NCBI RefSeq assembly: GCF_021568705.1
Contig: NZ_JAKGTH010000006.1
Coordinates: 744,001-808,000, forward strand
Reading direction: 5' to 3'
Length of the DNA: 64,000 nt
Origin: Gillisia lutea
GTDB lineage: Bacteria > Bacteroidota > Bacteroidia > Flavobacteriales > Flavobacteriaceae
Part shown: piece after piece, positions 21,390-29,087 of the stretch
How the letters are laid out: every line of letters starts with the position of its first letter
Position numbering within the stretch: the first letter of the stretch is position 1
Notes under the pieces: model-generated
The model's database searches: none
What the model saw: only the letters and a program-made list of their open reading frames with translations
What the model was told of the DNA's origin: nothing
Translations under genes and position numbers: made by a program

Positions 21390-23795
21390 ATGCGAATTTT
21401 ATTTTCTGCCCTTTTCACAGTCTTCGTTATTGCAATAAGTTCGGCCCAAGAAATAATAGTGATCGACAAGGATTCAAATCTTCCCATTTCCAATGTAATG
21501 ATACTCAATAAGAGCAGGTCTAAAACTGTTGTTACCAATTCTCAGGGAAAAGCCGATGTTTCTAAATTTGAAACTGAAGAGCTGCTTGTTTTTACGCATG
21601 TTTCTCATTTAACCTATACTATTTCAAAGGCCAGAATTATATCAAATAAGAGCATAGTTTACCTTACTGAAGATCAGAATAACTTACAGGAAGTGGTTCT
21701 TTCAGTGGCTAAATTTGAACAGGACCTAACTTTGGTTCCGCAAAAGATAATAAGTTTAGAAGCTTCTGAAATCCAGTTTTCTAATCCGCAAACGGCTGCC
21801 GATCTTTTAGAGAATTCAGGAAAAGTATTCGTTCAGAAAAGTCAGTTAGGCGGTGGAAGCCCCATGATAAGAGGTTTTGCAACTAACCGGCTCCTAATTA
21901 CTGTAGACGGAGTGCGTATGAATACAGCAATTTTTAGAAGCGGAAACCTTCAAAATGTAATTTCCATAGATCCTTTAATAGTAGATAAAACGGAAGTGCT
22001 GCTTGGTCCTGGTTCTGTTGTCTACGGAAGCGACGCGGTGGGTGGGGTAATGAACTTTTATACGCTTCAACCTAAATTTTCCAGAGAGGAAAATGCCTTA
22101 GTACTTGCAAATGCTTACACTCGATATTCAAGTGCAAATGAAGAGGGAATGGCGCACGCCAATTTTAATATAGGTTTTGAGAAATGGGCATTTTTATCAG
22201 CAGTTACGTATTCAGATTTCGGAAATCTTAAAATGGGGTCTCATGGGCCGAAGGAATACTTAAGGTATGAATACGCTTCCCAGGAAAATGGGGAAGATAT
22301 CACTATTCAAAACCCCGATCCAAAAGTCCAAAAACCAACAGGTTACGAACAAATCAATCTGTTGCAAAAAGTGAAGTTTAAGGCAAATGAAGATTGGGAT
22401 TTCAATTTGGGCCTTCTTTACTCCACCACCTCAAATTACCCGAGATACGATAGGTTATATCGTAAAAAGAATGGAGAGCTGCGTGCTGCCGAGTGGTATT
22501 ATGGTCCGCAATCATGGTTTCTTGGTAATTTGAAGATCAATAAAAAGGGGAATAGTCAACTCTACGACAAGGCCCAATTTACAGCTGCTTACCAATATTT
22601 TGAGGAGAGTAGGCATGACCGGGACTTTGGAAAGGAACTGCGTTATAACACTCAGGAGCAGGTAGATGCCTATTCCATAAATTTGGATTTTGAGAAATCT
22701 ATTGATGAAAACAGCCTTTTTTACGGTGCTGAATATGTTTTAAATAATGTACATTCTTCCGGGAACACTTATAATATTACAACAGAGGAAAAGCAGGAAA
22801 CAGCTTCCAGGTATCCTGACGCTTCCAGCTGGCAAAGCATGGCTGCATATGCTACTTATTTATGGAAAATTCAGGCAAATCTTTCTTTGCAGTCGGGTGT
22901 GAGATATAGTCATATTTTACTGAATGCCAATTTTATTGATGAATTCTATGATTTTCCGTTTCAAAAAGCCGATATCAATACTGGGGCATTGACAGGAAGT
23001 ATAGGAATTAACTGGCAGCAGAACCAGTTTTTTAATTGGCGACTTAATCTTTCTACAGCTTTTAGGGCTCCAAATATAGATGATGTAGGAAAGATTTTTG
23101 ATTCGGAACCCGGGGCTGTAGTAGTACCCAATCCAGATTTAAAACCGGAGTATGCCTATAATTCTGAAATGGGTTTAAAGTGGACTCCTTCAGAAAAAAT
23201 TAAATTGGAATTAGCAGGATTCTATACACTTTTAGATAATGCTATGGTGAGAAGGGATTTCAATTTGAATGGGCTAACGCAAGTAGATTATCAAGGAGAA
23301 CCAAGCAGGGTTCAGGCAATCCAGAATGCCGCAAATGCCTATGTTTATGGATTTGAAGCGGGCGCAGAATTAGATATTATCAAGAGCTTGCAGTTGAAAT
23401 CATACATTACATACACTCAGGGAAAAGAAGAACAGGACGATGGCGCCAAAAAACCATTACGTCATGCCGCACCAATATTTGGGAATACACATTTAGTGTG
23501 GACCAAGAATCGATTGAAACTGGATCTTTTTGGAGAGTATAACGGACAGTTCGATTTTGACGAGTTGGCACCATCAGAACAAAGCAAAGATTACCTATAT
23601 GCCACAGACAGGAATGGAAACCCGTATTCGCCCTCCTGGTACACCTTGAATGTAACAGGGCAATATGAGTTTGATATAAACTGGACTGCTACAGCTTCCC
23701 TCGAAAATATTACCGATCAGCGCTATCGCACTTATTCTTCTGGAATTTCAGCAGCGGGGAGGAATCTTATTTTAGCACTTAAATACAGTTTGTAA
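21390..23795 (+). CDS. TonB-dependent outer-membrane receptor
   Basis: The 801-residue protein has a signal peptide (1-19), a carboxypeptidase-like regulatory domain (about 20-100) and a plug domain (about 110-230, GGGSPMIRGFATNRLLITVD and YGSDAVGGVMNFY). A 22-strand barrel ends at NLILALKYSL. The plug and AFRAPNIDDVGKIFDSE style resemble heme/hemoglobin-type receptors, but the ligand is not established. It abuts recO with no gap, which is odd for an envelope protein and makes its expression depend on the recO message or an internal promoter. Confidence 0.87.
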   Translation: MRILFSALFTVFVIAISSAQEIIVIDKDSNLPISNVMILNKSRSKTVVTNSQGKADVSKFETEELLVFTHVSHLTYTISKARIISNKSIVYLTEDQNNLQEVVLSVAKFEQDLTLVPQKIISLEASEIQFSNPQTAADLLENSGKVFVQKSQLGGGSPMIRGFATNRLLITVDGVRMNTAIFRSGNLQNVISIDPLIVDKTEVLLGPGSVVYGSDAVGGVMNFYTLQPKFSREENALVLANAYTRYSSANEEGMAHANFNIGFEKWAFLSAVTYSDFGNLKMGSHGPKEYLRYEYASQENGEDITIQNPDPKVQKPTGYEQINLLQKVKFKANEDWDFNLGLLYSTTSNYPRYDRLYRKKNGELRAAEWYYGPQSWFLGNLKINKKGNSQLYDKAQFTAAYQYFEESRHDRDFGKELRYNTQEQVDAYSINLDFEKSIDENSLFYGAEYVLNNVHSSGNTYNITTEEKQETASRYPDASSWQSMAAYATYLWKIQANLSLQSGVRYSHILLNANFIDEFYDFPFQKADINTGALTGSIGINWQQNQFFNWRLNLSTAFRAPNIDDVGKIFDSEPGAVVVPNPDLKPEYAYNSEMGLKWTPSEKIKLELAGFYTLLDNAMVRRDFNLNGLTQVDYQGEPSRVQAIQNAANAYVYGFEAGAELDIIKSLQLKSYITYTQGKEEQDDGAKKPLRHAAPIFGNTHLVWTKNRLKLDLFGEYNGQFDFDELAPSEQSKDYLYATDRNGNPYSPSWYTLNVTGQYEFDINWTATASLENITDQRYRTYSSGISAAGRNLILALKYSL

Positions 23796-23929: not shown

Positions 23930-26900
23930 ATGAGCAGAAAGTTCCCTGAGTATAAAGGACTTGACTTACCAAAAGTAGCAGAGGAGATCTTAAGCTATTG
24001 GAAAGAGAATGATATTTTTGAAAAGAGTGTCTCTACCAGAGATGGGCATGAGCCGTTCGTGTTTTTTGAAGGACCACCTTCTGCTAACGGACTTCCCGGG
24101 ATACACCATGTAATGGCGCGTGCCATCAAAGATATTTTTTGTCGATACAAAACTCAAAAAGGATTCCAGGTAAAACGAAAAGCAGGATGGGATACTCATG
24201 GTTTGCCAGTAGAGCTAGGTGTTGAAAAGGAACTTGGAATTACCAAAGAAGATATTGGAACCAAAATAAGTGTAGAAGAATATAATCAGGCATGTAAGAA
24301 TGCCGTGATGCGCTACACCGATGTTTGGAACGATCTTACTGAAAAGATGGGGTACTGGGTAGATATGGATGATCCATATATTACCTATAAGCCTAAATAC
24401 ATGGAAACTGTATGGTGGTTGTTATCCCAGATCTATAAGAAAGGTCTTATTTATAAAGGATATACCATCCAACCATATTCTCCAAAAGCTGGTACAGGAT
24501 TGAGTTCTCACGAACTTAACCAGCCGGGAACTTATCAGGATGTTACCGATACCACAGTAACGGCCATGTTCAAAGCTAAAGTCGATACTTTACCCGAATT
24601 TCTTGCTGAGGTTTCTAATGAGATCTATTTGGTTGCTTGGACTACTACACCGTGGACCTTACCTTCTAATACTGCGCTAACAGTAGGACCAAAAATTGAA
24701 TATGTACTGGTATCCACCTATAATCAATACACTTTTGAGCCTATCAATGTAATTATGGCGAAAAACCTTGTCGCTAAACAATTTGATAAGAAGTTCAAGA
24801 AATTAGAGAATAAAGAAGCTTTGAAAGCGTATAAACAGGGTGATAAGATCCCTTATTATGTTGAAAAATCTTTCTTTGGAAAAGATCTTGTGGGCTTAAA
24901 ATATGAGCAGTTATTGCCTTATGCGCAGCCTCATAATAATCCGCAAGATGCATTTCGAGTAATTGCCGGAGATTTTGTTACTACTGAAGATGGAACGGGG
25001 ATAGTTCATACCGCACCTACTTTTGGAGCCGATGATGCCATGGTAGCAAAGCAGGCCGTTCCGGAGGTGCCGCCAATGCTAGTGATGGATGAGAATGATA
25101 ATCTTGTGCCATTGGTAGATCTACAAGGGAAATTTAGACCTGAAATGGATGAGCTTGCCGGGAAGTATGTTAAGAATGAATACTATGCCGATGGAGAAGC
25201 TCCTGAGAAATCTGTAGATGTAGAAATTGCTATAAAATTAAAAGAAGAGAATAGAGCCTTTAAGGTTGAAAAATATGTTCACAGTTATCCAAACTGCTGG
25301 AGAACCGATAAGCCTATTCTTTATTATCCATTAGATTCCTGGTTTATTAAAATTACCGATGTTAAGGACAGAATGTTCGAGCTTAACCAAGGAATTAACT
25401 GGAAGCCAAAAGCTACAGGAGAAGGAAGATTTGGAAACTGGCTGGCAAATGCCAATGACTGGAACCTTTCCCGAAGTAGGTATTGGGGAATTCCGCTTCC
25501 AATTTGGAGGACAGAAGATGGAAAAGAGGAAATCATTATTGGGTCTATTGAAGAATTGAAAGCTGAAATGGCTAAAGCCGTAGAAGCAGGATTTATGAAA
25601 GAAGATAAATTCGCCTCTTTTGAAGTGGGGAATATGAGCGAAGAGAATTATGACAAAGTAGATCTTCATAAAAATGTAGTAGATGAAATTACGCTGGTTT
25701 CAGCTTCTGGAAAACCAATGAAGCGCGAAGCCGATCTTATAGATGTATGGTTCGATTCTGGATCTATGCCTTATGCGCAGTGGCATTACCCCTTCGAGCA
25801 GCCAGAAGACAAAGGTTTGATGCAGGCCGATTTCATTGCAGAAGGAGTAGATCAAACCCGCGGATGGTTCTACACATTGCACGCAATTGCTACTACCATT
25901 TTTGATGATGTAGCCTATAAGAATGTTGTTTCTAACGGACTGGTGCTGGATAAAAACGGGCAAAAAATGTCTAAAAGACTAGGGAATGCTGTAGATCCTT
26001 TTGAGACGCTAGCCGCTTTTGGTCCGGATGCAACTCGCTGGTACATGATCTCTAATGCTAACCCTTGGGATAACTTAAAATTTGATATTGAAGGAATTTC
26101 TGAAGTAAGACGTAAGTTCTTTGGAACACTTTATAATACATATTCTTTCTTCATTTTATATGCTAACATCGATAATTTCACTTACGCGGAAGCCGATGTG
26201 CCTCTAGAAGAAAGACCTGAAATTGATAGATGGATACTTTCGGAATTGAACACCTTAGTAGATAAAGTAGATAAGTTTTATGCCGATTATGAGCCAACAC
26301 GTGCTACTCGAGCTATATCTGAATTCGTTCAGGAGAATTTGAGTAACTGGTTTGTGAGATTAAGCAGAAGAAGATTCTGGAAAGGCGATTACGAGCAGGA
26401 TAAGATCTCTGCATACCAAACCTTATATACCTGCCTACTAACAGTAGCTAAATTAGGTGCACCGGTAGCTCCTTTCTTTATGGAAAGACTTTACCGAGAT
26501 TTGAATGCTGCAACTCAAAAAGAAGCTTTTGAGTCGGTTCACCTGGCAGATTTCCCTGTTTTCGATGAGAAAATGGTAGATAAAGAGCTGGAACATAAGA
26601 TGGAAAAGGCCCAGACAATTTCATCGTTAGTGTTATCATTACGTAAAAAAGAGATGATCAAAGTGCGTCAGCCGCTACAAAGAATCATGATTCCTGTGTT
26701 AGATGAACAGCAAAAAGCTGAAATTCTGGCTGTAGAAGATTTGATCAAATCTGAAGTGAATGTGAAAGAAATCCAGCTAATTGACGATGCCTCAGGGATT
26801 TTAGTAAAACAAGTGAAGCCCAATTTCAAAGTTTTAGGCCCCAGATATGGTAAGAATATGAAAACAGTTGTAAATTTAATCAATCAATTTACTTCTGAAG

Positions 26901-27328
26901 ATATTTCAACTATAGAAAGGGACGGGAATATTAGCGTTGATAGTAATGGAAAAATGATTACTTTGGCGGCCGAAGATGTAATAATTAGCTCGCAAGATAT
27001 TGAAGGCTGGTTAGTTGCCAGCAGCGGGACTATTACAGTAGCTTTAGATGTGCATATTTCGGAAGAATTAAAAAAAGAAGGAATTGCCAGAGAATTGGTA
27101 AACAGAATTCAGAATCTTAGAAAGGATTCCGGATATGAAGTTACCGATACCATAGATGTTACCCTACTGAAAGACAGTGTTGTCGAGGAGGCTGTTTTGC
27201 AAAATATAAATTATATCAAGAACGAGACACTAACTGCTCAGCTCGAATTTGCAGAGGTGATAACCGAAGGAATAGATATTGACTTCGATGATGTTACCAC
27301 CAAATTGTGTATCACTAAACATTTATAA
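23930..27328 (+). CDS. ileS: isoleucine--tRNA ligase, eukaryotic-like (IleS2-type), altered HIGH motif
   Basis: The 1132-residue enzyme charges tRNA-Ile. It has the class I N-terminal signature region, but PPSANGLPGIHHVMARAIKD gives GIHH (residues 57-60) where HXGH is normal. The second signature KMSKR is at residues 679-683. An editing domain lies between (AWTTTPWTLPSNTAL; GTGIVHTAPTFGADDAM). Length and the absence of a C-terminal zinc knuckle fit the eukaryotic-like type 2 enzymes, which are typically mupirocin-resistant. A DksA-like gene follows after 3 nt, then lspA, a conserved Bacteroidota order. Confidence 0.96.
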   Translation: MSRKFPEYKGLDLPKVAEEILSYWKENDIFEKSVSTRDGHEPFVFFEGPPSANGLPGIHHVMARAIKDIFCRYKTQKGFQVKRKAGWDTHGLPVELGVEKELGITKEDIGTKISVEEYNQACKNAVMRYTDVWNDLTEKMGYWVDMDDPYITYKPKYMETVWWLLSQIYKKGLIYKGYTIQPYSPKAGTGLSSHELNQPGTYQDVTDTTVTAMFKAKVDTLPEFLAEVSNEIYLVAWTTTPWTLPSNTALTVGPKIEYVLVSTYNQYTFEPINVIMAKNLVAKQFDKKFKKLENKEALKAYKQGDKIPYYVEKSFFGKDLVGLKYEQLLPYAQPHNNPQDAFRVIAGDFVTTEDGTGIVHTAPTFGADDAMVAKQAVPEVPPMLVMDENDNLVPLVDLQGKFRPEMDELAGKYVKNEYYADGEAPEKSVDVEIAIKLKEENRAFKVEKYVHSYPNCWRTDKPILYYPLDSWFIKITDVKDRMFELNQGINWKPKATGEGRFGNWLANANDWNLSRSRYWGIPLPIWRTEDGKEEIIIGSIEELKAEMAKAVEAGFMKEDKFASFEVGNMSEENYDKVDLHKNVVDEITLVSASGKPMKREADLIDVWFDSGSMPYAQWHYPFEQPEDKGLMQADFIAEGVDQTRGWFYTLHAIATTIFDDVAYKNVVSNGLVLDKNGQKMSKRLGNAVDPFETLAAFGPDATRWYMISNANPWDNLKFDIEGISEVRRKFFGTLYNTYSFFILYANIDNFTYAEADVPLEERPEIDRWILSELNTLVDKVDKFYADYEPTRATRAISEFVQENLSNWFVRLSRRRFWKGDYEQDKISAYQTLYTCLLTVAKLGAPVAPFFMERLYRDLNAATQKEAFESVHLADFPVFDEKMVDKELEHKMEKAQTISSLVLSLRKKEMIKVRQPLQRIMIPVLDEQQKAEILAVEDLIKSEVNVKEIQLIDDASGILVKQVKPNFKVLGPRYGKNMKTVVNLINQFTSEDISTIERDGNISVDSNGKMITLAAEDVIISSQDIEGWLVASSGTITVALDVHISEELKKEGIARELVNRIQNLRKDSGYEVTDTIDVTLLKDSVVEEAVLQNINYIKNETLTAQLEFAEVITEGIDIDFDDVTTKLCITKHL

Positions 27329-27331
27329 CCC

Positions 27332-27715
27332 ATGTCAACAGAAATTAAAGAACGTTACAGTGATGCTGACTTAGCTGAATTTAAAGAATTAATTCAAAGT
27401 AAGATCAGAAAAGCTCAGGAACAATTGGAGCTTTATAAAAGCGCGTATGTAAACGATGGGAATAACGGTACAGATGATACTTCCCCCACTTTTAAAGCAT
27501 TTGAAGAGGGAAGCGAGACTCTTAGTAAGGAAGCGAACTCTCAACTAGCGATACGTCAGGAGAAGTTTATTCGTGATCTAAAAAACGCCTTAGTTCGTAT
27601 TGAAAGCAAAACATACGGAATTTGTAGAGTAACCGGAAAACTTATTGCTAAAGAACGCCTTAAGTTGGTTCCACATGCTACGCTAAGTATTGAAGCTAAA
27701 AATTTACAACGCTAA
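27332..27715 (+). CDS. DksA/TraR-like regulator with degenerate zinc finger
   Basis: The 127-residue protein has a long coiled-coil N-terminal part with an acidic central loop (DGNNGTDDTSPTFKAFEEGS). Its C-terminal finger region is YGICRVTGKLIAKERLKLVP. The canonical four-Cys finger is reduced to one Cys (C98): the second Cys of CxxC is Thr (T101) and the later pair is missing. DksA-type proteins bind the RNA polymerase secondary channel and modulate rRNA and stress promoters. It lies 3 nt after ileS and is followed by a terminator. Confidence 0.85.
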   Translation: MSTEIKERYSDADLAEFKELIQSKIRKAQEQLELYKSAYVNDGNNGTDDTSPTFKAFEEGSETLSKEANSQLAIRQEKFIRDLKNALVRIESKTYGICRVTGKLIAKERLKLVPHATLSIEAKNLQR

Positions 27716-28460: not shown

Positions 28461-29087
28461 ATGTCTTTAAAAAAAGCCAGTCTTATTATCGTTTTGATCT
28501 TATTGATAGATCAACTTTCAAAAATATATATTAAAACAAATTTCATCCTTGGAGAAGAGGTGAAAGTGCTGGAATGGTTTAGGATCTTGTTTGTTGAAAA
28601 CGAAGGTATGGCTTGGGGAGCGAAAATTCCCGGAGAGTACGGGAAATTGATACTGACACTATTTAGATTAGGGGCTATTGTGGGAATAGGATACTGGCTA
28701 TGGGATTCGGTTAGAAATAACGGTTCCAGGATATTAATTACTGCCATAGCCTTCATTTTTGCAGGAGCCTTTGGAAATATTATAGATTCTGTTATCTATG
28801 GAATAATTTACAGCGATAGTTACGGCCGTGTAGCCGAGTTTTTACCTGAGGGCGGGGGGTATGGAACACTTTTTCATGGAAAGGTGGTAGACATGCTTTA
28901 TTTCCCTTTGTACGATGGGGTGTTGCCGGAATGGATCCCTATTTGGGGAGGGGAAAACTTCACTTTTTTTGAGCCTGTCTTTAATATTGCCGATACAGCA
29001 ATAAGCGTAGGGGTAGGATTGTTATTGCTTTTCAATAAAAAAGCATTTCCGGTTAAAAAAGAAGCTGGTTTAGAAACGGCAGCTTAG
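28461..29087 (+). CDS. lspA: lipoprotein signal peptidase (signal peptidase II)
   Basis: The 208-residue protein has four membrane segments and the conserved motifs of LspA: DQLSKIYIK, VENEGMAWG, GAFGNIIDSVIYG and FNIADTAISVGV. The last two supply the catalytic aspartates. It cleaves diacylglyceryl-modified prolipoproteins in the inner membrane. The periplasmic insertion (EFLPEGGGYGTLFHGKVVD) makes it longer than E. coli LspA, as usual in Bacteroidota. A TATTTTTG (28429-28436) lies 24 nt upstream. The last 4 nt overlap the convergent receiver gene. Confidence 0.95.
   Translation: MSLKKASLIIVLILLIDQLSKIYIKTNFILGEEVKVLEWFRILFVENEGMAWGAKIPGEYGKLILTLFRLGAIVGIGYWLWDSVRNNGSRILITAIAFIFAGAFGNIIDSVIYGIIYSDSYGRVAEFLPEGGGYGTLFHGKVVDMLYFPLYDGVLPEWIPIWGGENFTFFEPVFNIADTAISVGVGLLLLFNKKAFPVKKEAGLETAA

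Follow-up and report, generated by a model that had tools for sequence, protein, structure and literature searches.

Exchange of the first and third positions in the class I signature, and its connection to mupirocin, are already known in isoleucyl-tRNA synthetases, since the G/AXHH motif and its meaning were described by Brkic et al. in 2023 (PMC10485003). The swap changes the best-conserved motif of the class I synthetases and is an elegant example of a drug target that is itself insensitive to an antibiotic. In the tree of that paper, 163 type 2 enzymes (IleRS2) divide into 77 with HXGH and 86 with G/AXHH, and none of the type 1 enzymes (IleRS1) carries G/AXHH. Its measurements show the swap lifting the mupirocin Ki up to about 1000-fold: the natural DrIleRS2 (ALHH) has a Ki of 6.6 mM that falls 823-fold on change to HVGH, while the opposite change, HVGH to GVHH, raises the Ki to 460 µM in PmIleRS2 and to 35 µM in TtIleRS2. 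In the structures of the same work the third His does the catalytic job of the first, which is possible since the tip of the helix is displaced in IleRS2, and modelling has this third His clashing with mupirocin. A further example is the Streptomyces griseus enzyme SgIleRS, an IleRS2 with a Ki of 10 mM (PMC4861432), which carries the same non-canonical motif according to PMC10485003. Taken across natural and engineered G/AXHH enzymes, the Ki spans 35 µM to 10 mM (PMC10485003, PMC4861432).

The enzyme of interest here, IleS, is encoded in the window, by which we mean the whole analysed stretch of 64,000 nucleotides from Gillisia lutea, and its features and neighbours are collected in Table 1. 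In our view, at a probability of roughly 95%, IleS is a normal housekeeping IleRS2 of the Bacteroidota, with a GIHH signature and a target expected to be insensitive to mupirocin. The original prediction read G-I-H-H at residues 57–60, and translation of the open reading frame returns exactly these residues and coordinates, from the codons GGG ATA CAC CAT, within the context ...EGPPSANGLPGIHHVMARAIKD... Thus the first signature of IleS is GIHH and departs from the canonical HXGH, with Gly in the first position and His in the third, precisely as in the G/AXHH enzymes. As GIHH corresponds to a published, tolerated variant of IleRS2 (PMC10485003), the missing HXGH does not exclude the protein from the isoleucyl-tRNA synthetase family. 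The second signature, which had been predicted to be intact, is indeed of the KMSKS type.

Table 1. Features of the ileS locus, in positions of the window
Feature	Position	Strand	Evidence
ileS, type 2 isoleucyl-tRNA synthetase of 1132 aa	23930..27328	+	TIGR00392; best PDB matches are IleRS2 chains; single copy
Non-canonical class I signature G57-I58-H59-H60 (GXHH for HXGH)	24098..24109	+	Translation; phmmer alignment
Second signature KMSKR, residues 679–683	25964..25978	+	Residue counts across relatives
C-terminal domain DUF5915 (PF19302), residues 936–1130	26735..27319	+	Pfam scan
DksA/TraR-like gene, a frequent neighbour of ileS in relatives	27332..27715	+	NCBIfam TIGR02890, 53 of 134.4 bits; TIGR02420, 46.6 of 115.5 (weak, below cut-offs)
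lspA, lipoprotein signal peptidase	28461..29087	+	NF011369, 303.4 bits (cut-off 200)

One might object that GIHH is a chance string, or an artefact of frame or annotation, and that the real HXGH sits elsewhere in the protein. We regard this as vanishingly improbable, having found no point in its support, and the alignments to solved IleRS2 structures refute it: in phmmer, GIHH falls without gaps on the signature of the IleRS2 chains, opposite PGVHH in 8c8w and PHVGH in 8c8u, so that another location for the motif is excluded. The frame itself is open over 1132 residues, G57, H59 and H60 are invariant among 16 aligned relatives, and in the wider survey set out below the motif is constant in all 165 loci read. 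Over those loci G57, H59 and H60 never change, whereas their codons vary synonymously (for Gly57, GGG 17, GGA 44, GGT 49, GGC 55), which argues that GIHH is not there by chance.

The family to which IleS belongs is clear from its scores. It reaches 992 bits against TIGR00392 (isoleucine--tRNA ligase, NCBIfam; cut-off 621.4), placing it in the class I family, and in the PDB it scores highest against the IleRS2 chains of 1032 aa, 8c8w, 8c8u, 8c8v and 8c9d, at 758–770 bits, as against at most 312 bits for chains of 917–921 aa. We take the former to be PmIleRS2 and the latter IleRS1 from their lengths together with PMC10485003, both being labelled isoleucine-tRNA ligase or isoleucyl-tRNA synthetase in the PDB table. 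The likeness to P. megaterium IleRS2 (HVGH) and to its GVHH variant extends over nearly the full length, with both signatures gap-free, and the bit score is slightly higher for the GVHH chain 8c8w (769.7) than for the HVGH chain 8c8u (764.9); the natural P. megaterium enzyme, however, has HXGH and 1032 residues, whereas IleS has GIHH and 1132. IleS is 100 residues longer than these chains and has additional residues between the two signatures, and the complete relatives read (n = 96) range from 1041 to 1163 aa. In Pfam, IleS shows a class I core and an anticodon-binding domain, followed at the C-terminus by DUF5915, with no zinc-finger family at E 0.001; by its position, PF19302 may be a mark of type 2. 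The hyper-resistant G/AXHH enzymes of S. griseus and D. radiodurans (ALHH; PMC10485003, PMC4861432) resemble IleS in type, in the first/third swap, in an intact KMSK and in their housekeeping role, but IleS has Arg as the fifth residue of KMSKS. The original prediction of an IleS2-type enzyme with this swap, a swap that it linked to published mupirocin hyper-resistance, is therefore borne out by the family scores and the phmmer alignment, and for the published link by PMC10485003.

Could this instead be an acquired, strain-specific resistance gene of the mupA/mupB kind, standing beside a sensitive housekeeping enzyme or replacing it? IleS is, after all, an IleRS2, and it scores 773.6 bits against the MupB model and 729.3 against MupA. 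These values are nonetheless far under the NCBIfam exception cut-offs of 1900 and place IleS outside MupA/MupB, and while the acquired enzymes are related isoleucyl-tRNA synthetases, IleS is the sole ileS of its genome and no accessory gene. That the window holds no second ileS had been noted before, and the search has now been extended to the whole genome (3.18 Mb, 14 contigs, 99.99% complete), in which a single match exceeds the TIGR00392 cut-off, a protein search gives one full-length IleRS match, and everything else found by either search is weaker and below the cut-off. Three of these weaker matches carry the motif regions IPPPNVTGVLHMGH (ValRS), YPSGAGLHVGH (LeuRS) and YTNGPIHIGH (MetRS), and NCBIfam identifies the proteins as valine--tRNA ligase (1010.2 bits against a cut-off of 704), leucine--tRNA ligase (735.1 against 548.4) and methionine--tRNA ligase (740.7 against 587). 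Their motifs are canonical (HMGH, HVGH and HIGH, respectively), so among the four class I enzymes compared in this genome the swap is limited to IleRS.

The surroundings of the gene speak to the same question. In the window, ileS is followed by the DksA/TraR-like gene, one further gene and lspA, and among the best 80 of 587 relatives the flanks of ileS hold a DksA-like gene in 53, lspA in 52 and both in 46, with some of the loci truncated where their contig ends. To be counted here, a neighbour had to give a tblastn match with E 1e-6 at any place in the locus, which extends up to 4 kb to each side of ileS; printed positions were inspected for 22 of the 80. This housekeeping context, together with MupB and MupA scores so far below 1900, counts against the idea that ileS was acquired as a resistance gene. 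So does the occurrence of this kind of enzyme in all same-phylum genomes read (n = 165), with a distribution that, in the loci read, is not patchy within Bacteroidota; we consider acquisition very improbable. Directly upstream of ileS lies a TonB-dependent receptor resembling haem/haemoglobin receptors (21390–23795; TIGR01786, 216.3 bits, below the cut-off of 323.75).

How far, then, does the swapped motif extend? A match to the IleRS N-terminus was found in 295 of 296 same-phylum genomes, the one genome lacking any IleRS-like match (G291) being 88% complete. Among the 296 genomes searched, 165 loci were read, one per genome and with the window's own included, starting from the 30 best-scoring and then mostly taking one per genus, and every one has GXHH (GIHH in 144, GVHH in 17, GLHH in 3 and GMHH in 1), with no HXGH in any. 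Likewise, among the best 80 of 587 confirmed relatives, all 78 loci that reach the motif have GXHH (GIHH 75, GVHH 3), two others (L245 and L256) stopping short of it. These 80, taken from public genomes and with a best identity of 84% (Salegentibacter tibetensis), include Salegentibacter, Mesonia, Flavobacterium, Chryseobacterium, Bacteroides, Prevotella, Alistipes, Hymenobacter, Mucilaginibacter and Saprospiraceae, and their titles are those of Bacteroidota save for one 'uncultured bacterium' (L255). For both sets, the ranking or choice of loci depended on similarity to a GXHH query, and species may overlap between them. In addition, each of 109 genomes has exactly one ileS match to TIGR00392, counting matches at E 1e-100 or better only, with those of G057 and G103 spanning profile positions 262–857 and 257–858; the 14 control genomes, E. 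coli and archaea among them, all give a match to the model, which would therefore have revealed other types of IleRS.

The swapped-motif IleRS is thus the standard IleRS of Bacteroidota as far as sampled, and GXHH is, judged from these sequences, an old and constant feature of the sampled phylum and not a resistance mutation of one strain. The original prediction was right in kind, in recognizing a swapped IleRS2, as the sole enzyme, with a published link to hyper-resistance; the exceptional status that it implied falls away with GXHH at 165 of 165 and 78 of 78 loci. Indeed, with GXHH in every relative read and one ileS per genome there is neither a peculiarity of the strain nor an acquired gene, and to label this ileS a strain-level 'mupirocin resistance gene' is misleading. 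Our own addition is a modest one, namely that the swapped motif is constant across the sampled Bacteroidota and seated in the only IleRS found, from which it follows that mupirocin should inhibit the target poorly.

As to mechanism, H59 in the third position would take over the stabilization of the transition state that the first His performs in HXGH, with Gly57 presumably occupying the signature's first place, and IleRS2 would tolerate the exchange thanks to a helix tip that lies further from the adenine. The third His, being bulky, would in turn collide with bound mupirocin, so that the target should be insensitive, with a Ki expected in the range of tens of µM to mM. We infer by homology that both catalysis and resistance carry over to IleS in this way, and insensitivity at the level of the target is a well-founded prediction on the same grounds. 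High resistance of the strain is likewise a prediction, from homologues none of which belongs to Bacteroidota; the whole-cell MIC of mupirocin depends on uptake too. GXHH is in any case no guarantee of the mM range, the Ki of TtIleRS2-GVHH being only 35 µM. A further contact differs: His582 of PmIleRS2, the counterpart of the Phe that stacks on mupirocin in IleRS1 (PMC10485003), corresponds to Leu671 in IleS when counted on the phmmer alignment, and among 160 relatives the column holds Leu 149 times, His 8 times and Met 3 times. One would not expect Leu at this position to promote stacking.

In the papers that we consulted, our literature search found no MIC for the organism and no Ki for an IleRS from Bacteroidota, and in a word search the main text of PMC10485003 contains neither 'bacteroid' nor 'flavobacter'. 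A survey of 100 gut strains, as described in PMC8128205, places predicted mupirocin-resistance genes in Actinobacteria exclusively, and we count this against an insensitive target in Bacteroidota, noting that it deals in gene prediction and not in phenotype. Elsewhere, PMC7564983 lists mupirocin among drugs tested for Staphylococcaceae only; the model in PMC13085705 predicts a higher diversity of Bacteroidaceae isolates with mupirocin in the media, which is compatible but weak; and in PMC10835994 the isoleucyl-tRNA synthetase of a Flavobacteriaceae genome is entered under mupirocin purely on the basis of annotation.

We offer, as a tentative idea that may well be wrong, that GXHH is fixed in the sole IleRS throughout Bacteroidota, that insensitivity at the level of the target is ancestral and phylum-wide, and that it has been kept by ancient selection from mupirocin- or thiomarinol-class compounds or, in a bolder version, by a catalytic or editing lock-in of the active site. 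It is also conceivable, though we rather doubt it, that the swap was fixed for reasons unrelated to antibiotics, in the architecture of the active site or of editing, and that insensitivity is a by-product. This would agree with the absence of HXGH from the 165 and the 78 loci, whose titles, where given, suggest origins in the gut, on roots, in fresh water and in the sea. It would also agree with the column of S51, a residue that we take to align with Tyr59 of EcIleRS, which holds Thr in 98 and Ser in 65 of 163 sequences. Tyr59 has been tied to tRNA-dependent pre-transfer editing, an activity absent from SgIleRS with its non-canonical motif (PMC4861432). Against a purely non-antibiotic origin, the change to GVHH costs the engineered enzymes up to about 10-fold in kcat and KM (PMC10485003), a loss that favours some selective benefit such as resistance, and compounds of the mupirocin class occur at sea too (thiomarinol, PMC3069032).

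Some details of the residue counts deserve mention. Two loci, from G176 and G280, are fragmentary (73 and 347 aa); they cover the motif and were left out of the 163-sequence counts, and three further sequences are gapped at the KMSKS columns, leaving 160 there. Among these 160, the fifth residue of the second signature is Ser in 88, Arg in 60, Thr in 8, Lys in 2, and His and Asn in 1 each. Finally, the ileS match of genome G067 (contig C5:3383-5968) contains one in-frame TAG, which may reflect a sequencing error, a broken gene or recoding.
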